The notes under the pieces are model-generated. The model was not told the origin of the DNA and searched no databases. It was given only the letters and a program-made list of their open reading frames with translations. Source: Pseudobdellovibrionaceae bacterium (lineage in GTDB: Bacteria; Bdellovibrionota; Bdellovibrionia; Bdellovibrionales; UBA1609). From it: a stretch of DNA of 45,060 bases. Positions 3,552 to 32,363 of the stretch are shown piece by piece (within the stretch, counting starts at the first letter, position 1; each line of letters opens with the position of its first letter). The stretch is from the NCBI GenBank assembly GCA_030591685.1, contig JAUVAX010000017.1, forward strand, positions 1 to 45,060. The letters run 5' to 3'. The translations under genes were made by a program, and so were the position numbers.

Positions 3552-5300
3552 ATGAGAAATAAGTGGTTTCAATTTATGGGTGTATTGCTCGTTGGTGTAA
3601 TCGTCGTTGCTTACTCGGTTATTATAGGTGTTGGTGATTCGGATACAGCTATACAAAGTAAAGTGCTCACCAGTACTGAGAACAATCAAATAGCTGAAAA
3701 CCAAGCCGAAATGAAGCAGCTTAAAAGCCTTATAGAGGAGGCCTTAGTTTGGAGAGTCATGGCACGCTCCTCTTATGAAGAAATCAAACCCTTTCTTAAT
3801 GGAAACACCAGTATCCCTCAGGAGGTACAAAATGCCATTGTTAAGGAGTCTTTGGGGTATTTGAAATTACGTAAAAAAATTATGTCATTAGCAGTAAAAT
3901 ACAAAAAATACTTAACAGGCTATAGACTTAAGCTGTCTTTAAATAAGAAATCAGGAATTGTCTCAGAGTCTGTTAAAGAACTTGACCATGGTAATTACAA
4001 TGGGAAAGGGCGAAACAGAAAACATAAAGACACTCTAGTTATTAACCCGCTCGATGAGAAGGGCCAACAGTACATAAGAAGTTTAAAAATTTCATTGTCA
4101 GCAGCATTGGTCTTATATGATAACTTTTTAGTGGGAGTGTTTCCCTATGCTGATAATAAAATTGTACGAAAAAAAATTAACCAAGACAATCTGGAGCTTA
4201 AGGGGGCGCTTGGTGATATTGAGGACAGCTACTATGCTTGGGGACCAAGACTTCTTGTGGAGGACGCCATTGGACTCTTTGAAGAAGAACAAAAATTCTT
4301 AAAAACAAAGCTAGGCCAAACTCTTGTGATGAGTGAGGATGCCAGGTATTTAAATACTCTTATTAGTTCGAGTTTATCTTATGAGGAGCTGAGAGATATA
4401 AGTATTATTAAGGTCTGGTGGAGTCGATTTGTAAAACGACACGATCAAAGAATGGACGTCTATAGAGGGGTAAAAATAGAGTCTACAAACGCTATTAGTA
4501 AGCTTTTTGGTAACTCTATGGGTATTTTTGAGTCCAGAAAAGGGTTTCTCTATAGCAATGAGGAACTTTCTGCAAATATACAAGCCCAACTCAAACCTCT
4601 TGATATACTTTTAGAGAAGACACCTTTTAGGCTTACAGATTCATTTATACCAGGTCACTGGGGCCATGTCGCCATATGGGTGGGGAGTGAAGAGGAGCTT
4701 AAGGCCATTAAGAAAAATGGAGTTTCGGCTTGGGACGCTTTAGGTGCCAACTTTGGCAATAAAGGCCCTGAGATGCAAGAGAGCATAGCCACCAATCACC
4801 GTATTGTAGAGGCCCTCAGACCAGGAGTTATGATTAATACATTAAATCATTTTTTAAACATTGATGACTTAGGTGTTATGAGAAGAAGTGCCAGCAATAA
4901 CCTGACTGATGCGCAAAAATTTGACTACCTTATGCTTGCTTTTAAGCAAGTCGGTAAAGAGTACGATTTTAATTTTGATGTAAACACAGATGACAAAATA
5001 GTTTGCTCTGAACTTATTTATAAAGTTTACCCTCATGATGCTTGGCCAACAACAGAGTCCATAAACCGCTGGACGATTTCTCCGGACAACGTTGTTGAAC
5101 TTGCTGTGGAGCGCGAGGGAGAGGGTTATCAGTACGACATACCTCTGCTCTACTCAGCAGGGTTAGAAATATCCGGTGATTCAGAGCATAAAAGAGAGAA
5201 AATGAAGCGGTTGCTACTGTATAGCTATGAAGATCAGGTCGCAATATTAACAAAAAAAACCAAACCTATAAAAACAGCGGTGATCAATGAACATAAGTAA
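3552..5300 (+). CDS. Membrane-anchored YiiX/C92-like permuted papain-fold protein
   Basis: A protein of 582 residues. One N-terminal membrane segment (about 8-27) is followed by a long helical region (40-350), then a domain resembling the YiiX/YebB permuted NlpC/P60 papain-fold family. That family places the catalytic His before the Cys: here GHWGHVAIWVG (His 369 and 372), RIVEAL (Glu 420) and KIVCSELIYKVY (Cys 485). Relatives hydrolyse amide or ester bonds, in some cases lipid or peptidoglycan linked. The ATG has a good site (AAGGTGA). The gene leads a three-gene unit: it overlaps the following lipoprotein gene by 14 bp, and that one overlaps the phospholipase D-like gene by 11 bp. The protein is anchored at the inner membrane, probably facing the periplasm (inference). 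The helical half is unrecognised. Confidence 0.78.
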   Translation: MRNKWFQFMGVLLVGVIVVAYSVIIGVGDSDTAIQSKVLTSTENNQIAENQAEMKQLKSLIEEALVWRVMARSSYEEIKPFLNGNTSIPQEVQNAIVKESLGYLKLRKKIMSLAVKYKKYLTGYRLKLSLNKKSGIVSESVKELDHGNYNGKGRNRKHKDTLVINPLDEKGQQYIRSLKISLSAALVLYDNFLVGVFPYADNKIVRKKINQDNLELKGALGDIEDSYYAWGPRLLVEDAIGLFEEEQKFLKTKLGQTLVMSEDARYLNTLISSSLSYEELRDISIIKVWWSRFVKRHDQRMDVYRGVKIESTNAISKLFGNSMGIFESRKGFLYSNEELSANIQAQLKPLDILLEKTPFRLTDSFIPGHWGHVAIWVGSEEELKAIKKNGVSAWDALGANFGNKGPEMQESIATNHRIVEALRPGVMINTLNHFLNIDDLGVMRRSASNNLTDAQKFDYLMLAFKQVGKEYDFNFDVNTDDKIVCSELIYKVYPHDAWPTTESINRWTISPDNVVELAVEREGEGYQYDIPLLYSAGLEISGDSEHKREKMKRLLLYSYEDQVAILTKKTKPIKTAVINEHK

Positions 5301-6456
5301 ATATTTAGCTGCGGCGAGTTTTATATTATTAATAGTTTCTTGTCAGTCATCTGAAAAGCCTTACCAAACGACAAGGGGACCTAGCTCTGAGGGTGAACTG
5401 CCTATTAAGTTTTCTCAAGCTCAAATAAGTATGATGAAGGATATGTTTTTAGCAGATCAAGTGCCAGGCACCCAAAAATTAAAAGTCACTACTGAGTTTC
5501 GCTCGGACTATAAAAATAAGGATTTTATTAAAAGAGCTAAAAACGCTATAAAACGCTCTATGATGAAGACCTTTCAAGCGGAAAACCCAAGTCGTGATGA
5601 GGATAATGATAAAAATAAAGACGATTTTTCAAGCCGCTTAAAGGAAAACCTAATAAAGGCACTAATGTCAGAATTTGTATTTAATTTAAAATTTTACAAG
5701 CTCATAAATGGTAATATATCGTTTAGCGTATTTTTGCTCCCAGAGCCAGTGGACAGTGATAATTTATTTAACGAGTACAATAATAATAACTTTGTAGATT
5801 TAAATCACTTTTCTGATTTCTCTGACATTGGTAAAGAGGCAGGGGGAATTATAAATGCCCTAAATTTAAAGTACTCTGAGCCGGGTGAGTATGTTGATGG
5901 TTATAAATATTTAGGGGGTGCTATTTTTTTGAATGTTAATTTTGTAGACCTTGGCGTTCTTAAAAAAGAAATTTTAAATGGTGAAATTGTTTACAGAAAG
6001 TACTACCGAGCCAGTGACGAGAGGTACCCTGTTAATTATGTGGCTTTGAAAACTAAACTCAAAGACGCTGCCTTTACGGGGGTGAAAACGGTAACAGTAG
6101 ACATCACTAAAGAGTTTAACCTTGCAGAGACCACGCCTAAATTAAAAGACATGCAGATCCATTTTGGTGGGCTTATGTATCATGGCAAAAGAGATTATAG
6201 CTCTAAGCTGCAAATATATGACTCTAATAATCGCGCGGTTATTGATATAAACGCACTTAATTATAACTTTGAAAGCAAGGTGTTTGATTTGGCCCGGTCA
6301 AGAACAAGGGAGACCGTAAAGTCTACAGGGGGAGGTCGAGGCTCTGGAAAGCCAATTCGGAGAAATCGTACGCCAAAATTATCAGATTTATTAAAAAATA
6401 ATAAAGACAAATTTATAGAGGCTTTACATTTAAAGAGGTTTTGGAATGAAATATAG
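5287..6456 (+). CDS. Lipoprotein of unknown function
   Basis: A protein of 389 residues. The first 20 form a lipoprotein signal peptide ending in the lipobox IVSC, so the mature N-terminal Cys is residue 19. The body is rich in Asn, Asp and Lys and shows no domain I recognise. An acidic Asp/Asn/Lys-rich stretch lies near residues 100-120, and a Gly/Arg-rich stretch precedes the C-terminus. The gene starts inside the end of the upstream YiiX-like gene and runs 11 bp into the downstream phospholipase D-like gene, so translation of the three is probably coupled. This context suggests an envelope partner of the two enzymes. Confidence 0.8.
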   Translation: MNISKYLAAASFILLIVSCQSSEKPYQTTRGPSSEGELPIKFSQAQISMMKDMFLADQVPGTQKLKVTTEFRSDYKNKDFIKRAKNAIKRSMMKTFQAENPSRDEDNDKNKDDFSSRLKENLIKALMSEFVFNLKFYKLINGNISFSVFLLPEPVDSDNLFNEYNNNNFVDLNHFSDFSDIGKEAGGIINALNLKYSEPGEYVDGYKYLGGAIFLNVNFVDLGVLKKEILNGEIVYRKYYRASDERYPVNYVALKTKLKDAAFTGVKTVTVDITKEFNLAETTPKLKDMQIHFGGLMYHGKRDYSSKLQIYDSNNRAVIDINALNYNFESKVFDLARSRTRETVKSTGGGRGSGKPIRRNRTPKLSDLLKNNKDKFIEALHLKRFWNEI

Positions 6457-17175: not shown

Positions 17176-18522
17176 ATGAGTCGTGTGTTTCAGTATATCA
17201 TTGGCGTTGCTTTTTTTGCTCAAACACTTGTTGGAGGTTTAGACTCAGCAAAAGCTGACTATAAACTACTTTGGTTGCCAACAGATAAAGAGTGCCCAAG
17301 TCAAGAAACTCAAACCGAAAAATATATCAACGCACCTCTTTTTCATGACCTCTCAAGTGTAGCTGATATTTCTAGAATCCCAGGGCTTAATACACATGAT
17401 GAGCTGAGAACTTCAGATGTTTATAAGGATAAAGAGCTTCGGGTTTTTTATGAATTGATGGGACCTTTTGATCCTGAAAAAGAAACCATATTTTTTGTCC
17501 CAGGCGGTCCGGGGCAGGACCATACATTTATCCATACTCTCAAGGAAAAACTTTTTAAAAGATTTGATCCAGATTTTTTAAAAACATTCAATGTATTAGC
17601 AATGGATCACAGAGGTGTAGGCTGTTCGAAACCCAAGTTCCCGGGAAATGAGCCTTCCCAGAGCCTATATATACGATATGCGGCGTCTGATATGGACTTA
17701 ATCAGAAAAAAGTTACTGGGACACGAAGGTAAAATTCACGTCTGGGGTGGCTCATACGGTACAATGCTCTCTCAAACTTACGCTCTTCTGTACCCAAACT
17801 CCATAAAGAGCTTAATGTTGTGGGGAGCATTTAGTTCTTACAAGGATTTCTCACGTGCTAAGCAAAAGTATGAACCCTTTGTGGTGAGCAGCATCCCCAA
17901 GGTATATGAACTTTACCCCTCAATAAAAGATCAGCACCCAGAGCTAGCTCGATTATTTATCCAGTGGACAGCAGGACCCTTCTACGGTTACGAAGGACGA
18001 GCAAAAGTGATTCCTGTCATGATTGAAAAAATTAATTCATTGATTGCAGATAGTAAGATTGATGAAGCGAGGGAGCTTTTGTCCTCACCGCAAGGGGTTA
18101 TGCCCTGGATGATGAGGTCCGTAGCCTGTGGTGAAATTTTTGATTATCAAAGTCACTACGATGGTGAGTTTGAGGTTTTTGGAAATGTGTTTTCATACTG
18201 TGACGAGTACAAAGATATTAGAGAGCTTTTTAACTATTCAGACTTAATCAAACAAATCAACGTACCTACATTTCTTTTCAGCAATTTTTTTGATCACGTC
18301 ACACCATATGAGAGTATGATAAAAATGGCTCAACAAATTCCTGATAACTACTTTTACCTTGATAAGGATTCAGGGCATGGTGTAGATAAGCCCGAGTGTT
18401 TTACAGAACTCATCAGTGGTTTTTTTAAAGGTCTCAATAAAAATGCATTAGATGACATTGCCTATTCAAAAGCCTGTTTAGATCCACCAAAGACCCAACC
18501 AGACGCCGAAGATGATAAATAA
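17176..18522 (+). CDS. Secreted S33-family (prolyl/tripeptidyl aminopeptidase-like) alpha/beta hydrolase
   Basis: A protein of 448 residues with a signal peptide (about 1-27, ending SAKA). The alpha/beta-hydrolase signatures of peptidase family S33 are in order: FFVPGGPGQDHTF (oxyanion loop of the HGGPG type), AMDHRGVGCS, the nucleophile elbow WGGSYGTM (Ser about 193), FSNFFDHVTPYESM (catalytic Asp) and DKDSGHGVD (catalytic His). Relatives release N-terminal residues or tripeptides from peptides, and the exported ones serve nutrition. The middle lid region is rich in aromatic residues. It is transcribed alone after a hairpin-bearing leader. Exact specificity cannot be told from sequence; a secreted esterase of the same fold is the alternative. 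Confidence 0.9.
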   Translation: MSRVFQYIIGVAFFAQTLVGGLDSAKADYKLLWLPTDKECPSQETQTEKYINAPLFHDLSSVADISRIPGLNTHDELRTSDVYKDKELRVFYELMGPFDPEKETIFFVPGGPGQDHTFIHTLKEKLFKRFDPDFLKTFNVLAMDHRGVGCSKPKFPGNEPSQSLYIRYAASDMDLIRKKLLGHEGKIHVWGGSYGTMLSQTYALLYPNSIKSLMLWGAFSSYKDFSRAKQKYEPFVVSSIPKVYELYPSIKDQHPELARLFIQWTAGPFYGYEGRAKVIPVMIEKINSLIADSKIDEARELLSSPQGVMPWMMRSVACGEIFDYQSHYDGEFEVFGNVFSYCDEYKDIRELFNYSDLIKQINVPTFLFSNFFDHVTPYESMIKMAQQIPDNYFYLDKDSGHGVDKPECFTELISGFFKGLNKNALDDIAYSKACLDPPKTQPDAEDDK

Positions 18523-18790: not shown

Positions 18791-19408
18791 CCTAGTTAAG
18801 AGGTAAATAACGGACAAACTCAAAGAAAAAATAAGTGAGTTCTTTAAGATGCGCCCAACAATATCGCCAAAAACAGGGCAATGATCAAGGGTAAATGTTG
18901 AGAATTTGATGTGTGAGGGTTGGGCTGGGCTATAAGAGCTTGAGTTTTCGAGCTGCTTTGCACCAGGGAGAGGGCTTGAGGAGAGCCTATACGAGGGCGT
19001 TTAACGAGTGACCAGGGAGTATTTTTTTAGATGCGACGTGCCGTTGCCGTAGAGTGACCTAAGTTAGGACAAATATAAATTTAAAGGGGCTTGTGAGCAG
19101 TGGACCTGAAGCTGAGCTTAAATACACCTAGAAGGCGCACCTGTTTTGACTGAAGTAAGCCGGTAACTATTAATTAATACTGGGTATTTTTAAAATAGAG
19201 AGCTTTCAATGAATAGCTTGTCGTGAGGGCCGGGCCCGCTCAAGGTTGTCTTAAAATGTGTAAGGGTGAGAATAATTTGAAAGAATTTAAGCAGATGTCT
19301 GAAAATATAAGTGATAACACTGATTTAACTAAAAATTTAAAGTGAAAAGGGTTACAATACTTACTGATTGTGGTGTAATTAATGCGGAATAATATACTAG
19401 GAGAACCA
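18791..19408. other. Intergenic region before the first TetR gene
   Basis: About 600 bp with no convincing gene. It would hold the tRNA-Cys promoter (minus, just right of 18790) and the TetR promoter (plus). The 9-mer ACCAGGGAG occurs twice (about 18963 and 19011), the second just before a T7 run near 19021. A small hairpin (AGCTTG/CGAGCT) lies near 18940. These are weak hints of an untranslated transcript and no more. Confidence 0.3.
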
Positions 19409-20083
19409 ATGAGTAGTATTACTGATGCCGGTGAAATTAGAGAGCCTCTTAAAGACCATCTTGTATTTGAAAAAAAGAAGCCCTCAAAAGAAAAAATATT
19501 TGTTGAGTCGGCTAAACTTTTTGCAATCAAGGGGTACTACGGGACGAGTGTTCGAGACATCGCAAAGGCTGCCGGAGTGAATGTGGCGCTCATTAACTAT
19601 CACTTTAAGTCCAAAGAAAATTTATTTATTGAAGTGGCCGGGCATGGCCTTAAAGTTGTTGATGGGGCCATTGCGCAAAGTGCAGGCCTACCAGTGCAAA
19701 AAATTATTGATCGAGTGTATCAGCTCTCTACAGATTTAAATACAACTGGATATTATGTAGCTGTTATATTTAGTATGTTCACAGGTGGCTTTGACCGTAA
19801 AGAGGCTTTTTTAGATTTAATAACTAAAAAAAGAACTCATTTTGAGCAAGTGTTATCGGATGCCATTATAAAAGATTATGACCTACCTGGCTGGACCGAA
19901 GAGGTTTCAAAAGTAGCATGGCAGATTGTTGTGTTTACGACAGCTAACTCCTGTATGCGTTTTGGTACGGGCACAGCTAAAGACACTGGCTATGTGGGCG
20001 AGTTGTTCCCTGATGCTGAAGAAACAACATTAGCTTTAATACAAGATATGGTGACAAGAGTTTGCAGCTCATTAAAAAAATAA
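19409..20083 (+). CDS. TetR-family transcriptional regulator
   Basis: A protein of 224 residues. The start at ATG 19409 is preferred because AGGAG ends five bases before it; the in-frame ATG at 19382 has no such site. The N-terminal helix-turn-helix is typical: KIFVESAKLFAIKGYYGTSVRDIAKAAGV, then ALINYHFKSKENLF, where the recognition helix has the usual YHFKSKE pattern. The C-terminal helical domain binds an unknown ligand. The M23-type gene lies 19 bp downstream on the same strand and may be co-transcribed. Target unknown; autoregulation is usual for the family. Confidence 0.9.
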   Translation: MSSITDAGEIREPLKDHLVFEKKKPSKEKIFVESAKLFAIKGYYGTSVRDIAKAAGVNVALINYHFKSKENLFIEVAGHGLKVVDGAIAQSAGLPVQKIIDRVYQLSTDLNTTGYYVAVIFSMFTGGFDRKEAFLDLITKKRTHFEQVLSDAIIKDYDLPGWTEEVSKVAWQIVVFTTANSCMRFGTGTAKDTGYVGELFPDAEETTLALIQDMVTRVCSSLKK

Positions 20084-23586: not shown

Positions 23587-24087
23587 CTAAATATCCGGAA
23601 AGCAACTCTCCACCTGAGCGCTTGAGGCCTGAAAGGCAATGGCTCCAAGCTCCTTTAAGTACAGCTCAAACACTTGCTCTTTAGAGTACTTAGGGTAAAG
23701 CTCCTCAAGGTGTGCGAGTAGCTCAGATTCAGCCTTTTTTATAATTTTACCAAAATAGGAGTCTTTGTTTTTTTCTAAGTAATAGAGCACAAAAATATAA
23801 GGCATATGTACAAGGTCTGATAAAATCTTTTTTAACCTTTCATGCAGGCCCATTTTACTATTGGGGTCTGAGTTAAAAAAAATACCCACCATGTACCGGT
23901 AGGAGTGCTCCAAAATATCATCTTTATCTTTACCAAAATAATAGTAAATTAATGAGCGTGTGATACCTGAAAACCGTGAAAGGTCACTGACTGTCCATTT
24001 AAGGTGCCCACGGTTGACCTCAAGTCGCAACACAGCATTACATACTGAAAAGTAAACTTCGTCTTTGTTTTTGGTTCGTTTGCTCAT
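23587..24087 (-). CDS. TetR-family regulator, divergent from the GH3 operon
   Basis: A protein of 166 residues, short for TetR. The DNA-binding part is WTVSDLSRFSGITRSLIYYYFGKDKDDIL (about 31-59), with the standard YYYFG..KDD recognition-helix ending. The C-terminal part is helical and ends shortly after SSAQVESCFPDI. The gene starts 163 bp from the GH3-type gene on the opposite strand, with a perfect inverted repeat between them. The simplest reading is a local repressor of that operon and of itself (inference). The ATG is preceded by AAAAGGGATTAA. Confidence 0.85.
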   Translation of the reverse strand: MSKRTKNKDEVYFSVCNAVLRLEVNRGHLKWTVSDLSRFSGITRSLIYYYFGKDKDDILEHSYRYMVGIFFNSDPNSKMGLHERLKKILSDLVHMPYIFVLYYLEKNKDSYFGKIIKKAESELLAHLEELYPKYSKEQVFELYLKELGAIAFQASSAQVESCFPDI

Positions 24088-24131
24088 TTAATCCCTTTTA
24101 AACACATATTTGAACAGTAACCCTTACATTC

Positions 24132-24157
24132 TGTCAAAAACAAATATACTTTTGACA
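24132..24157. promoter_or_regulatory. Perfect inverted repeat between divergent TetR and GH3 genes
   Basis: TGTCAAAA (24132-24139) and TTTTGACA (24150-24157) are exact reverse complements separated by 10 bases. Each arm also supplies a TTGACA -35 box pointing away from the centre: plus strand at 24152-24157, minus strand at 24132-24137. A repressor bound here would block both promoters. The -10 boxes downstream of each are weak. Whether the symmetry is an operator, or merely two back-to-back -35 boxes, cannot be told from sequence. Confidence 0.55.
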
Positions 24158-24249
24158 AGTTCTCAACGAGGGTGTCAACGATCTGCAATGACTTGGCCAT
24201 TAGGCTCACGTACAACAAAGTATATCAATTTTTAAATGGGGGGGAACAC

Positions 24250-25776
24250 ATGTTAGAACAAGTCACTCGACATATCGGAGAGAGGTATTTAGCCAAAGTT
24301 TTTTCAGATGGTCAACTTGACCAATCAGCCACTCAACGGGCTCAAGAAAAAAACTTTCAATATTTAAAAAGAAAACTTAAAGGTACTAAAATCTATGAGG
24401 ATTTAAAGTTAAACTTAATTTTTTCGTACAATGAGTTTGTAAAACATGTGCCAGTAAAAGATTACACTTTTTATAAGCCCTACGTTGACGAAGTTTTAGA
24501 GGGCAAACCAAATATTCTATTTAAAGATAAAATCGAGTACATCGGACTTACATCAGGTACAAGCGGTCAAAACAGTAAAAAAATACCCTATAACGAAAAA
24601 ATGATCTCGTGCTTTTTAAGTGCCCAAAGGCGAGTGGCCAGTGTTATTAACGTCAACGAAGTAGATGTGGACATAATTTCAGCTGACAGGTTAGCCTTTG
24701 GCTCTTCGCCTGTATGTTATGAAGAGAACAGCTTAAAGCATGGCTACATTTCAGGGATTTTAAGCAGTCGCGCCCCAAGGTTATTAAAAAAGCATTGCTA
24801 CCCCTCTGAAGAGACACTCAATATACCTGATTGGGACTCTAAAATTAACGAGGTCATGAAGGAAACTCTAGATAAGGACATTCAGGTTGTCAGCGGCATA
24901 CCGACTTATATTATTAGTGTGTTCGAGGCTATCCTAGAAAAAACAGGTGCCCGTCAAATTTGTGAGATCTGGCCTAACATGAAGGTGTTTATTTATGCAG
25001 CAACACCTATTAAGCAATATGAATCTAGAATTAATGAGCTCGTTGGTCGTCAATTAAGTTACTATGGGTTGTACGCGTCGACAGAGGCCCCAATTGGTAT
25101 TCCATCATCAAAGTTTAAAAATGGGGCTCAATCTTATACCCTTAATCCTGATTTATTATACACCTTTGCCCCTGTAGATGACGACAAAGAAAACCTGGGT
25201 GTTCAAGACCTTAAAACTGACAACACTTATTATGTGAACATTGGTTGCCATAATGGTTTTGTACACTATGCGATGAAGGACATAATAAAAATTCAACAGA
25301 CCGAAGGGCAAATTTTATTTGATATTATTGGACGAAAAAATACAGGCATTAATGTGGCTGCTGAAAAGGTGTCTGATGAAAACCTGTTAAACACAGTATT
25401 TCAAACAAAAAAAGATACAAATACAGATATAAGGCATTTCTTTGTAGCTCCAAATACTTCGGGTACAAAAGCTAATTATCAATGGAGCTTATTTGTGCCA
25501 AATCCCAGTGACAAATTGGCCGAGCAGCTATCAAAGGCCTTAGACTTAGCCCTTTGCAATATTAACTTAGATTATAAAGACTGCCGTGATGACGGAGTGA
25601 TAGACGCAGCCACTGTTGTTTTGCACAAGCCTGAGGTGTTGAACCCTTACTTTGAGGCCAACAGGTCTAAAGGGCAATTTAAACCCAAGACTTCTTTTTT
25701 GTCAGAAGAGGAGTTCAATAGTTTTTGGGCTTTAAATTTTGAGGCCAAAAGGCCTCATGGGGAGCTGCTACAATGA
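24250..25776 (+). CDS. GH3-type acyl-acid amido synthetase
   Basis: A protein of 508 residues from ATG 24250, which has a G-rich Shine-Dalgarno (GGGGGGGAA). An upstream in-frame GTG at 24172 would add 26 unlikely residues. The GH3 adenylating signatures are present: GLTSGTSGQNSKKIPY (ATP loop, about 100-114), QLSYYGLYASTEAPIG (about 265-282) and FDIIGRKNTGINVAAEKVSD (about 356-376). GH3 enzymes activate a carboxylic acid with ATP and join it to an amino acid as an amide. They are best known from plant hormone conjugation, but bacterial members exist. It overlaps the LysE-type gene by 4 bp and heads a three-gene operon. Substrates unknown. Confidence 0.88.
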   Translation: MLEQVTRHIGERYLAKVFSDGQLDQSATQRAQEKNFQYLKRKLKGTKIYEDLKLNLIFSYNEFVKHVPVKDYTFYKPYVDEVLEGKPNILFKDKIEYIGLTSGTSGQNSKKIPYNEKMISCFLSAQRRVASVINVNEVDVDIISADRLAFGSSPVCYEENSLKHGYISGILSSRAPRLLKKHCYPSEETLNIPDWDSKINEVMKETLDKDIQVVSGIPTYIISVFEAILEKTGARQICEIWPNMKVFIYAATPIKQYESRINELVGRQLSYYGLYASTEAPIGIPSSKFKNGAQSYTLNPDLLYTFAPVDDDKENLGVQDLKTDNTYYVNIGCHNGFVHYAMKDIIKIQQTEGQILFDIIGRKNTGINVAAEKVSDENLLNTVFQTKKDTNTDIRHFFVAPNTSGTKANYQWSLFVPNPSDKLAEQLSKALDLALCNINLDYKDCRDDGVIDAATVVLHKPEVLNPYFEANRSKGQFKPKTSFLSEEEFNSFWALNFEAKRPHGELLQ

Positions 25777-26372
25777 ACCCTATAAACTTATTTTTTCTGG
25801 GTGTATTGGCCACTTTACCCATGGGACCTGCGGGTTTTAATGTGGCTTCAAGTTGTGTCAAAAAGCAGGAGTTCCCTAAAAGAGCGTTCACAGGATTTTT
25901 AGTTGCCGAAATGGTTTATTTAATGCTGGCCTTTATGCTTAAAGACCTGTTTTTAGCTGAGATTGTTTTTTGGAAACTTGTGACTTCAATAATTGCAGGA
26001 TTATTCATTACTCTGTTTGGGGTTTACATAATTCAAAAAAAGAAAAGAAAAGACTCAGAGCTGCCTACGCCGGCATCCGGGTTTAAAAAAAGCTTTTTAA
26101 TCACTCTTAGTAACCCAAGTATTTTAATTTTGCATTTAACAATTATTTTACAGGTGCAACATCTTCAGGCTATGAGCCAGGTCACATTAGTGGGTAGTTT
26201 TTTATTAGGTGGCGTTTGTGCATTGCTGTTTATCATTGCCGTGCTGTTGTATCAAAAAAAGTTTTTTTTCGAATACGGGGCACGTATTGAAAAAATATGT
26301 GGGTGGCTCTTGTTTTTTATGGGGTCAGGTTTGTTAATTATTCAAATACAAAAAGTCATTGCAGGGGTATAA
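25773..26372 (+). CDS. LysE-type amino-acid/metabolite exporter
   Basis: A protein of 199 residues with about six membrane segments. The start NPINLFFLGVLATLPMGPAGFN is the LysE/RhtB N-terminal motif, in which a G-P-x-x-P element usually follows the first helix. A charged cytosolic loop (KKKRKDSE) separates the halves, and SNPSILILHLTIIL follows. Family members export amino acids or similar small molecules. It is co-translated with the GH3-type synthetase (ATGA overlap), and the next gene starts 2 bp after its stop. In this setting the likely cargo is the amide made by the synthetase (inference). Confidence 0.88.
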   Translation: MNPINLFFLGVLATLPMGPAGFNVASSCVKKQEFPKRAFTGFLVAEMVYLMLAFMLKDLFLAEIVFWKLVTSIIAGLFITLFGVYIIQKKKRKDSELPTPASGFKKSFLITLSNPSILILHLTIILQVQHLQAMSQVTLVGSFLLGGVCALLFIIAVLLYQKKFFFEYGARIEKICGWLLFFMGSGLLIIQIQKVIAGV

Positions 26373-26374
26373 AA

Positions 26375-28423
26375 ATGAAAAAGTTAGTTTTAATTATGGT
26401 TTGTTTAAGTGCGCAGTTTAGTTTTGCAAACATTGAAAATAATAACTGTCAATTGACCCGATCAAAAGATGGCCAAAAGCTTTATAAGTGTTCAATGCTT
26501 GGTGGGGCTAAGGATATAAATATACTTCACGTTAAAGGAGATATTGTTAAGACCGCCTATTACCACGGGTTATTTTTGTCTAGTGAAATTGACAGAGCTT
26601 TATTTAAGGGCGTTTTTGATAAAAAATCACGAGCGGTAAAATCCCTTAACAAAAAACAGCGCAAGCAGTTTGAAAGTCTTAATAGTTGTTTATTAGCTCA
26701 TTATAAAAAAAACACTTCTAGCCAGTTTATTAAAATGAATAAAAACCTAGTTCGAGGCATGAGAGATGCCGGCAACACAACCATTAGTGAAAAGAACTTT
26801 ATAGAGGCTAATTATTTAGTTGAAACTTCAATTTACTTTGATGCTTTAGAAAAAAAAATGACAAAAAGCCCCGCCAAAGCTAAGGCCGAGTTATTGGCTC
26901 GCTGTGGGCCTCGGTTTGTTGTTAAAGGTATATTTGGGATATTGAAAAAGATTTCAAAGCCCTTTAAAGAGTTAAAAATGGGCTGCACAGGTGTTGCCGC
27001 TTCGGCCCCAATGACAAGTGATGGGGGGTTAGTTTTAGGCCGTAATTTTGACACTGGCCTTTTAGGTTACTTTGAAAAAGAGCACCTTATACTCATCCAT
27101 GATTTACCTAATAAAACAAGAGTGGTTGGCTTTGCAAGTGCCGGGCTTCATTACGCCGCAGGAGTGAGTGGTTTTAACTCTCATGGTTTAGTCGCCTCAC
27201 TGCATGAGCTACAAACAGAAGCGGTAACAACGGGCGCTCGAACGGTCTGCAAACGTGGTGGGTGTAGGAATGGATCAAAAAGGATTAAAACAGAGGTGAC
27301 CCCCTATTTACTACACCGGGTACTTATGGAGGCTAAAACTTTAGACCAAGCCATTAGCCTTATTAAAAGCACAAGGGGCCTGGGTGCATGGACTATTTTA
27401 ATAGCAGATAGTAAGACCAATGAAATTGCCTCTATTGAAATTTCAGGTAAAAAAGTAGCTGTAGCCAGACGGGTTAGAAACTCTCATATGGCTCAAAGTA
27501 ATCATTTTTTTAGTAAAGTAGGTAAAAAGCATGGTTATGAATATAGTTTAAATAAAACCCTTGAGACCCGTGGGCGGTTAAATCATGTAAAAAGTAATTT
27601 GCAAGCTTCAGAGGGGCGAGTGGATTACCAATGGGTGATTGATATGCTTTCAGGGCACACTGATGATTATGTAGGCCCAAGGTCGTTTGGTCGCACAACG
27701 ACAAAGGTATATACAGCGGTGACGCATGTTATGGTCCCTCAGCGTAATGAGGCCTGGATGAGTTTAGGGGAGTCCTACCCCACCACCTCATCTACATTTT
27801 TTGGAATAAGGTTTAACACCGACAAAGAAGTACCCTTTGAGTTGATTGGCACAACAAAAGCTGCAAAATTTGAGGGGCGAGACAACTGGTACCGATCCCT
27901 AAAGTACTACGTGAGAGCTTATATTAACCAACAGTCGGCGAATATAAATCCCTCTTTAAATATGTCTGTAATTGAAAATCTAAACTTAGCTATTCAGTGG
28001 TCTTTAAAAGATAATATTGTCGAAATGCCTTATTACTTTATGCGAGCGCGCATGCGGGCTCAAATGTCGGCTTTAAGCCATTTTGAGAAAAACGATACAT
28101 TAGCTCGGCAGCAGTTATTAAGTGCTCAAAGTGACTGGTTATTTTTGTTAAAAAGCCTACAGCAGGGTCGTGTACAGCTGCACCCTTATCAAGAGTCTTT
28201 AGTGCACCTTTGGCTTTACCGTACAAGTGAACTGTTAACACAATTAGGAGCTACAGGGGTGAGCCCAGGGCCCCATTATAAAGCGGCTACAGAGGGTTTT
28301 AAAGCTTTAAAAATGGATCATAAAAAGCATTTTTACTTTAATGAACTTATAAGGACCCTGCGTCGCCCTTATACTTTTAACCAAGCTAAGAATGATGAGA
28401 TTCATTTTGGTACTGTCGAATAA
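26375..28423 (+). CDS. Exported C45-type Ntn hydrolase / acyltransferase-like protein
   Basis: A protein of 682 residues from ATG 26375, which has AGGGG upstream; an earlier in-frame ATG at 26297 lies inside the exporter gene. A signal peptide ends at FSFA (18). After a helical pro-region comes KMGCTGVAASAP (Cys 204), GGLVLGRNFD, VSGFNSHGLVASLHE, LLHRVLMEAKTLDQAISLI and WTILIADSKTNEIASIE. These follow the acyl-CoA:6-aminopenicillanate acyltransferase (C45) family, whose members mature by self-cleavage before the Cys and make or break amide bonds. The C-terminal 200 residues are helical and unusual for the family. With the GH3-type enzyme and exporter it may hydrolyse or re-acylate the exported amide outside the cytosol. 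Confidence 0.85.
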   Translation: MKKLVLIMVCLSAQFSFANIENNNCQLTRSKDGQKLYKCSMLGGAKDINILHVKGDIVKTAYYHGLFLSSEIDRALFKGVFDKKSRAVKSLNKKQRKQFESLNSCLLAHYKKNTSSQFIKMNKNLVRGMRDAGNTTISEKNFIEANYLVETSIYFDALEKKMTKSPAKAKAELLARCGPRFVVKGIFGILKKISKPFKELKMGCTGVAASAPMTSDGGLVLGRNFDTGLLGYFEKEHLILIHDLPNKTRVVGFASAGLHYAAGVSGFNSHGLVASLHELQTEAVTTGARTVCKRGGCRNGSKRIKTEVTPYLLHRVLMEAKTLDQAISLIKSTRGLGAWTILIADSKTNEIASIEISGKKVAVARRVRNSHMAQSNHFFSKVGKKHGYEYSLNKTLETRGRLNHVKSNLQASEGRVDYQWVIDMLSGHTDDYVGPRSFGRTTTKVYTAVTHVMVPQRNEAWMSLGESYPTTSSTFFGIRFNTDKEVPFELIGTTKAAKFEGRDNWYRSLKYYVRAYINQQSANINPSLNMSVIENLNLAIQWSLKDNIVEMPYYFMRARMRAQMSALSHFEKNDTLARQQLLSAQSDWLFLLKSLQQGRVQLHPYQESLVHLWLYRTSELLTQLGATGVSPGPHYKAATEGFKALKMDHKKHFYFNELIRTLRRPYTFNQAKNDEIHFGTVE

Positions 28424-28457
28424 CTTGCAAAATTGATAAGAGTTGATTAACAATGAG

Positions 28458-28486
28458 CCCCTGATTTTACTTTTAGGGGTTTTTTT
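28458..28486 (+). terminator. Probable intrinsic terminator after the GH3 operon, overlapping the tilS start
   Basis: CCCCT (28458-28462) pairs with AGGGG (28475-28479) across a 12-base loop, followed by seven T (28480-28486). The stem is short, so strength is moderate. The right arm AGGGG also sits five bases before a TTG at 28485 in the tilS frame and could be its ribosome-binding site. Confidence 0.5.
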
Positions 28487-31559: not shown

Positions 31560-32363
31560 ATAGACCACTTTATTGAGAGCATAAAAATAACTGTAGGGCA
31601 GTTTCAAGTTCAAGATGTTGCAGATATTTTTTTGGTGTGGTTTGTTGTTTATAGAGTCCTTATTTTATCTAAAAGGTCTGGAGCTGTTCAAATACTTTCA
31701 GGGATTGGTTTTCTCGCCATTGCCTATTTACTCAGTATATGGCTTGAGTTGGTCACGTTTAACTGGCTTTTAGAAAAGTTTTTTTCAAATCTATTTTTAA
31801 TCACAGTTATTTTGTTTCAAGGAGAGATCAGAAGAGCGTTGGCACAAATTGGCAGTAACCCCTTTTTGTCAGGGGTCACCTTGGGCGAAGAAGCTCATAT
31901 TATTGATGAGCTCGCAAAGGGGGTTATGCAACTGGCTCAAAAGGGTTGTGGGGCACTTATTGTTATAGAGCGTGAAATTGATTTAGAGTATTTTATTGAA
32001 ATGGGTACAGAGATGGATGCCACTTTAAAATCAGAAACTCTTTACTCTATATTTCAACCTCATAGCCCCATACACGACGGGGCTGTCATCATCCGTGGGG
32101 GCCGTATATATGCTGCTGGGTGCTTTTTGCCTCTGAGCAAAAACCCGTTATTAGATAAAAACTTAGGGACTCGCCACCGAGCGGCCGTTGGTTTAACAGA
32201 AGAAACGGATGCCTATGTTTTTGTAGTCAGTGAAGAGAGCAACAATGTAGGCATAGTACACAGTGGTCAGTTAGAGCCTGATTTGGACCATGCACAAATT
32301 AGACAGGCAATAAGTGATATTTTTAAAATTAAAATTAGAAGCTCAGATCGGAGCTTTGCATGA
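31560..32363 (+). CDS. cdaA: Diadenylate cyclase CdaA (c-di-AMP synthase), start codon unclear
   Basis: Makes c-di-AMP from two ATP at the membrane. Three N-terminal membrane segments precede the DAC domain, which has DGAVIIRGGRIYAAGC (Asp 173) and GTRHRAAVGL (Arg 205, His 206, Arg 207), both catalytic. The first standard start in frame is TTG 31632, but that cuts into the first membrane helix. The frame is open and family-like upstream (VQDVADIFLVWFVVYRV). Upstream there are only ATC 31557, ATA 31560 and ATT 31572, with AAGGA at 31548-31552 well placed for ATC or ATA. An unusual start codon, readthrough from ftsH (same frame, one TAA), or a base error near 31555 are the options. It overlaps the YbbR gene by 4 bp. 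Confidence 0.93.
   Translation: MDHFIESIKITVGQFQVQDVADIFLVWFVVYRVLILSKRSGAVQILSGIGFLAIAYLLSIWLELVTFNWLLEKFFSNLFLITVILFQGEIRRALAQIGSNPFLSGVTLGEEAHIIDELAKGVMQLAQKGCGALIVIEREIDLEYFIEMGTEMDATLKSETLYSIFQPHSPIHDGAVIIRGGRIYAAGCFLPLSKNPLLDKNLGTRHRAAVGLTEETDAYVFVVSEESNNVGIVHSGQLEPDLDHAQIRQAISDIFKIKIRSSDRSFA

Follow-up and report, generated by a model that had tools for sequence, protein, structure and literature searches.

A predicted TetR-controlled module for making, exporting and cleaving an acyl amide in Bdellovibrionota

What can an amide-forming synthetase, a small-molecule exporter and an exported enzyme of an N-acyl-bond-cleaving family accomplish together when their genes stand back to back, behind a divergent regulator gene and a set of potential control sites? 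The question is raised by a stretch of 45,060 nucleotides (the window; contig JAUVAX010000017.1, assembly GCA_030591685.1) from a Pseudobdellovibrionaceae bacterium, in which a preliminary description made from the letters alone had named a TetR regulator, a GH3-type acyl acid amido synthetase, a LysE-type exporter and a C45-type N-terminal nucleophile (Ntn) hydrolase. All four genes are found there, as open reading frames with matches to Pfam and NCBIfam profiles (E-values: GH3 7.8e-24; LysE 1.4e-6; AAT 1.1e-13; C45_proenzyme 9.2e-29; TetR_N 2e-4). That the TetR, GH3, LysE and C45 genes constitute a single unit is, on the comparative evidence, close to certain. We read the unit as a TetR-controlled module that makes an acyl amide, exports it and cleaves it, and give this reading a probability of about 0.55. 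The features of the locus are as follows.

23587..24087, minus strand: divergent TetR-family regulator, 166 amino acids, from orthologs and a TetR_N match below the cut-off
24111..24137, no strand: predicted operator 1, TGAACA-N15-TGTCAA, 10/12 consensus letters
24132..24157, no strand: perfect inverted repeat TGTCAAAA-N10-TTTTGACA, consisting of the right half of operator 1 and the left half of operator 2
24152..24178, no strand: predicted operator 2, TTGACA-N15-TGTCAA, 12/12 consensus letters, 41 bp after operator 1
24250..25776, plus strand: GH3-type acyl acid amido synthetase, 508 amino acids, from the Pfam GH3 N- and C-terminal profiles
25773..26372, plus strand: LysE-type exporter, 199 amino acids, from Pfam LysE, with conserved G10, G18-P19 and N114
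26375..28423, plus strand: exported C45-type Ntn hydrolase, 682 amino acids, with signal peptide, from C45_proenzyme
28455..28482, plus strand: intrinsic terminator-like hairpin at the operon end, -20.2 kcal/mol, z -4.9

The three plus-strand genes are tightly coupled: the LysE start overlaps the GH3 stop by 4 bases, and C45 begins two bases past LysE, at the ATG at 26375, with a signal peptide. GH3 starts at the ATG at 24250, which is preceded by GGGGGGAACAC, a G-rich stretch resembling a ribosome-binding site, so that the longer GTG-initiated reading frame from 24172 is not needed. The hairpin stands between the operon and tilS and ftsH. A promoter scan of the window returned 14 promoters, against 12.9 expected.

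Conservation and probable shared regulation of the four genes

A search of genomes for a conserved GH3-LysE-C45 neighbourhood, named beforehand as one way to check the proposal, found it kept across five families. Among 369 genomes of the phylum, with clade thresholds of at least 320 bits for GH3 and at least 460 bits for C45, the GH3 clade is present in 27 and the C45 clade in 28, and every one of the 27 GH3 carriers has C45 as well. Within the order (141 genomes), a strong GH3 and a strong full-length C45 coincide in 16 genomes, and one further genome (G054) has C45 without GH3. These carrier counts take in related species and are not independent; they span the window's own family (f1), f8 (Bdellovibrio and one other genus), f12 (Bacteriovoracaceae), f26 and f28. 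The genes are adjacent in most carriers across the five families while their flanks change, from a Mlt-like gene and tilS/ftsH in the window to radical-SAM, MnmC-like, solute-binding and MMPL genes in most Bdellovibrio and to other genes elsewhere; it is thus the block that is conserved, not the region. The TetR gene is divergent in the order and in f28, comes last in most f12 loci and has no adjacent counterpart in G183 and G186. A separate LysE gene is absent from the G361 and G336 loci. Pairwise distances between the proteins correlate closely (GH3-C45, r 0.98; TetR-GH3, 0.98) and the trees are largely congruent, features that shared descent alone would also raise.

At the G336 locus (L160), the exporter has in all likelihood been joined to the hydrolase. 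The 811-residue C45 reading frame begins there with a LysE-like membrane domain, an assignment that rests on profile comparison, since Pfam did not call LysE: the first 184 residues align with the LysE alignment in hhalign with 95% probability and an E-value of 3.6e-8. Taken as a LysE-C45 fusion, this protein is direct evidence of joint action by exporter and hydrolase, and it puts C45 where the exporter releases its cargo.

The predicted operators point the same way. Two operators of the form TnnACA-N15-TGTCAA lie between TetR and GH3 at 16/16 GH3 loci of the order, mostly spaced at 42 bp; the spacing is 41 bp in the window, 53 bp in G077 and 73 bp in G097, where one of the two sites begins CTGACA. 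All GH3 loci carry operators of the TTGACA-N15-TGTCAA type, usually two. In f12, G361 and G364 such sites again precede GH3; the f26 site is weak (G336 has a weak one), and in G360, where C45 is on the TetR side, the single site detected lies in front of C45. In seven Bdellovibrio genomes (G072, G048, G077, G078, G088, G089 and G090), the two sites of the module are the genome's sole matches to TNGACA-N15-TGTCAA, and three genomes without module genes (G082, G084 and G042) have zero such matches genome-wide. Extra single matches were seen in G000 (C47, C88), G142, G144, G185, G186 and G364 (C182), near genes with no visible link to the module and in roughly chance numbers. The window regulator itself scores 21.5 bits against TetR_N, under the cut-off of 24, and is 51-54% identical to orthologs placed alike in Bdellovibrio, one of which scores 24.8 bits and passes.

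Loci in which the block has been taken apart are especially telling. C45 has been relocated in three genomes and LysE in one. In G056 the module is split over three contigs, with an operator at each: TetR and GH3 retain their two sites, the LysE ortholog (52% identity), with pilin-like genes around it, is preceded at 62 bp by a site of its own, and another lies immediately in front of C45. The relocated C45 of G364 likewise has an operator upstream. Because the footprint is shared even by genes that have moved, the genes are understood as one regulon, and the rearranged genomes with their own operator at the moved genes are the strongest evidence for it.

Control of the module by its TetR protein through these predicted operators is very likely. 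The preliminary description had seen the control unit in the TetR gene together with the perfect inverted repeat; the regulator stands, and the control element becomes the pair of operators, whose inner halves form the repeat. As an operator in its own right the repeat was rejected, the two flanking 27-bp sites being those that match the operators of other genomes. Shuffling the 162-bp spacer yields a perfect 8+8 repeat in 6% of cases, which makes such a repeat weak evidence by itself; two operator-like sites arise in 0.02%.

Could the genes be mere neighbours, with LysE exporting amino acids, GH3 acting as a lipid ligase and C45 as a scavenging amidase in unrelated pathways? Each family does occur alone elsewhere: C45 homologues without GH3 were found in G054, G305, G213, G344, G348 and alphaproteobacteria, and G018 and G031 have other GH3 subfamilies and no C45. 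The specific clades concerned, however, co-occur exactly, exporter and hydrolase are fused in one genome, and operators accompany the relocated LysE and C45 genes, whereas the lone C45 loci of G054, G305, G213, G344 and G348 have no operator. Chance association is thereby strongly contradicted and nearly excluded. The earlier proposal that the three genes make up one functional unit is borne out by the conserved neighbourhood, the exact co-occurrence, the fusion and the operators at relocated genes.

Some further homologues and sites were noted in the same comparisons. A single-protein GH3 scan of genome contigs found no relative; an alignment-based C45 scan of them did find homologues. Four of the C45 homologues (L118, L120, L121 and L122), at 24-27% identity, have no GH3 alongside, and hosts of such lone genes are Pelagibius, a Kiloniellaceae metagenome-assembled genome and a record labelled Oceanobacillus, a label that may be wrong. 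In G018, from the window's family, a lone TetR paralog (37% identity; L105:6274-6888) has the same double operator with sites 41 bp apart and is divergent from a PhoX-family phosphatase gene (4207-5832, minus strand); GH3 and C45 are absent there. In G361, a perfect operator copy (L188:3761-3787) lies between genes for a secreted acyltransferase-like protein (PF01553) and an alpha/beta-hydrolase.

Predicted chemistry and proposed order of reactions

The GH3 protein of the window passes the Pfam cut-off of 23.6 for the N-terminal (84.9) and C-terminal (36.6) domains and falls just under it for the central domain (23.0, cut-off 23.6). Three nucleotide motifs are recognizable by eye in comparison with those described in PMC12493201, namely TSGTSGQNSKK (101-111), YASTE (275-279) and GFVHYAMKD (336-344), and their cores S102-G-T, T278-E279, G336 and D344 are invariant in 16 orthologs. 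In structure searches with the AlphaFold model (predicted local distance difference test, pLDDT, 74), plant GH3 chains occupy the first 27 places among the Foldseek matches, the best being 4epl (E 2e-17). By sequence, the nearest characterised relative is OlsH, whose model (NF052613) is the sole NCBIfam match. All 16 members from the order match it (best E 3e-54), the window protein over residues 22-468. Identity of the window enzyme with OlsH was rejected at 149 bits, far under the equivalog cut-off of 620. OlsH, a GH3-like enzyme, forms N-acyl-ornithine from free fatty acid and ATP as the first step of ornithine lipid synthesis; it is the one characterised bacterial GH3 case that we found, and the paper describing it leaves the roles of other, widespread bacterial GH3 enzymes open (PMC12493201). 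Other GH3 subfamilies of the phylum were encountered beside a KASIII-like fusion (L011:6799-10192), beside desaturase, thioesterase and acyltransferase genes (L012:3700-7328) and beside an MMPL transporter gene (L170:1496-5393). OlsH and the lipid context of such paralogs point to a fatty acid as the acid substrate, the LysE partner and the plant GH3 enzymes to smaller acids.

The relation to OlsH brings up the possibility that the GH3 enzyme makes a lyso-aminolipid, an N-acyl amino acid meant for the outer membrane, the surface or the medium, which C45 would trim or turn over. Besides the kinship with OlsH, the placement of GH3 paralogs next to fatty-acid and lipid genes (L011, L012, L170) would fit, as would the MMPL/LolA-like gene next to TetR in most Bdellovibrio loci and the operator of G361 between the acyltransferase-like and alpha/beta-hydrolase genes. 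Yet the OlsH cut-off is missed (149 vs 620 bits), and by gene order in the loci read (no OlsI model was run), neither OlsI, the alpha/beta-hydrolase-type acyltransferase, nor OlsBA/OlsF stands beside or between the module genes. The acyltransferase of G361, a genome that lacks LysE at its GH3 locus, is not conserved among other carriers, and the constant partner of GH3 is an exported amide hydrolase rather than an O-acyltransferase. We consider this reading unlikely.

The C45 protein exceeds the cut-off of the NCBIfam model C45_proenzyme (100.8 bits vs 85). It consists of a signal peptide, a helical alpha part (~25-198), a catalytic domain with Cys204 and a helical-repeat C-terminus (~503-672). 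The helical part precedes the nucleophile, as it does in acid ceramidase and NAAA. Maturation is predicted to occur through self-cleavage between Gly203 and Cys204. The residues C204, R223, N224, D226 and N376 are invariant in 17 C45 sequences, their roles being assigned by analogy. The model matches in fold isopenicillin N acyltransferase (2x1d, 5e-8), the 66.3-kDa protein (8e-7), acid ceramidase (3e-6) and NAAA (1e-5), and further bile salt hydrolase and penicillin V acylase. The likeness to acid ceramidase and NAAA is one of fold only, a search against PDB sequences having given no match at E 0.1. Isopenicillin N acyltransferase, acid ceramidase and NAAA all act on N-acyl bonds.

That the best of these matches (E 5e-8) is an acyl exchanger and that the NCBIfam family is named acyltransferase/hydrolase suggests a different use of the enzyme, in which the GH3 amide would serve as acyl carrier over the membrane and C45 would act as a transferase, moving the acyl group onto a periplasmic or surface acceptor. 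Most of the other fold matches are hydrolases, and neither an acceptor nor an acceptor-making gene is conserved in the module. Transfer as the main function is judged decidedly unlikely.

Gene content, the window operon, co-occurrence, the co-regulation footprint, the fusion and the conserved catalytic residues are the support from sequence and comparison for the make-export-cleave reading; substrate, transport cargo, direction of the C45 reaction, repression and ligand we infer. Inside the cell, GH3 would use ATP to activate a free carboxylic acid, for which the OlsH analogy makes a fatty acid the likeliest choice, and would couple it with an amino acid or a comparable amine. The resulting amide would leave through the LysE-like protein. 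Beyond the inner membrane, C45, exported by its signal peptide, would cut the amide or hand its acyl group to a different acceptor. TetR, on its two operators, would repress the operon and probably its own gene, until released by a ligand that is probably the acid or the amide. Where each protein is located, what chemistry its family is known for and the LysE-C45 fusion together suggest the order of the steps. The preliminary description had an N-acyl amino acid, perhaps a signal, a lipid or a siderophore-like product, processed or recaptured outside; the fusion in G336 fits cutting at the exit better than recapture.

Several points weigh against this scheme. An amide made only to be cut looks futile, unless exporting one half is the point. 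LysE is the least conserved part of the module (19-28% identity to the window protein); the window protein scores 28.4 bits against a Pfam cut-off of 25.6, one ortholog falls just below it (24.6), that of G364 has no Pfam hit and G361 has no LysE gene beside GH3. Small polar solutes are the usual freight of LysE proteins, so that it would be out of the ordinary for one to carry a long-chain N-acyl amino acid; the fit would be better with a short or aromatic acid. The C45 model is of moderate confidence (pLDDT 76), and the homology would suit a hydrolase and a transferase alike.

A bolder reading makes the amino acid a reusable handle: fixed to a carboxylic acid that is unwanted or deliberately secreted, it would render the acid transportable by an amino-acid exporter, and it would be cut off at the exit. 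The odds are clearly against this in its specific form, and we put it forward tentatively. If true, GH3, LysE and C45 would amount to an ATP-paid pump for an acid that lacks a dedicated exporter, free fatty acids encountered in predation being one possibility; all steps and the link to predation are conjectural.

Bdellovibrio and Bacteriovoracaceae, both among the carriers, are groups known for bacterial predators. Together with the export of C45, this would also suit a role on the uptake side, with C45 cutting N-acyl compounds released from prey, GH3 conjugating surplus acids inside and LysE venting amino acids. The LysE-C45 fusion speaks against it by putting the cut at the exit of the exporter. 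The block has no conserved importer, the solute-binding-like neighbour being confined to Bdellovibrio, and one regulator appears to govern all three genes. A scavenging role is very unlikely, and the outward order of synthesis, export and cleavage is preferred.

Comparison with known systems and further observations

Each part of the module comes from a known family, and the logic of export followed by deacylation is known; for the combination, the regulator and the operator we found no description. The statement that no described system has this exact set agrees with the literature searched, which covered few subscription journals: no account of the GH3-LysE-C45 set, its regulator or its operator turned up there, nor of GH3, LysE or N-acyl amino acids in Bdellovibrio, nor of a GH3-LysE cluster. 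OlsH (Sinac_1599 of Singulisphaera acidiphila; NF052613) shares with the window enzyme the GH3 family and the three nucleotide motifs (PMC12493201), whereas the window module has LysE, C45 and TetR as partners and no OlsI in the operon. The plant GH3 enzymes (JAR1/GH3.11, GH3.12/PBS3, GH3.5) are alike in fold (4epl, E 2e-17) and sequence (GH3.12, E 1e-13), with 14-19% identity in the fold matches; unlike them, the window GH3 is encoded in a bacterial operon with an exporter and an exported hydrolase. The cysteine Ntn hydrolases (isopenicillin N acyltransferase, acid ceramidase, NAAA, bile salt hydrolase, penicillin V acylase) have the same catalytic fold, the cysteine after a pro-part and the Arg/Asp/Asn set, but C45 adds a helical-repeat C-terminal domain and is operon-linked to the presumed maker of its substrate.

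Pyoverdine and colibactin, matured by PvdQ and ClbP, respectively, are acylated inside the cell as prodrugs, exported and deacylated in the periplasm. The acylate-export-deacylate logic is the same; their products are nonribosomal or polyketide, and no such assembly genes belong to the module described here. Synthases of the FeeM/NAS type resemble the module in the presumed product class, N-acyl amino acids; the enzyme is unrelated to GH3, is described as drawing on acyl-ACP (acyl carrier protein), and none is described there with LysE and C45 (PMC4897644).

The importance of the locus lies in a GH3 subfamily that is accompanied by an exported amide-cleaving enzyme and has an exporter and a regulator of its own, the regulator with readable binding sites. 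If the reading as a relay is true, the module would be a compact, three-gene way to move an acyl group or acid across a membrane. Bdellovibrio is culturable and genetically modifiable, so that the product, cargo and purpose of the module are directly testable.

Among the neighbours of the module, the MMPL transporter gene of most Bdellovibrio loci (L008:8865-11906 and orthologs) is fused to a LolA-like domain (outer-membrane lipoprotein sorting) and converges on TetR, overlapping its end by a few bases. It was rejected as a module partner, since neither the window nor the module loci outside Bdellovibrio have it. In the window, a second TetR-family gene (19382-20083; TetR_N 57 bits) lies 4 kb upstream, with an alpha/beta-hydrolase gene near it (17176-18522), and a diadenylate cyclase (DAC/CdaA-like) gene is located downstream of ftsH (31632-32363).

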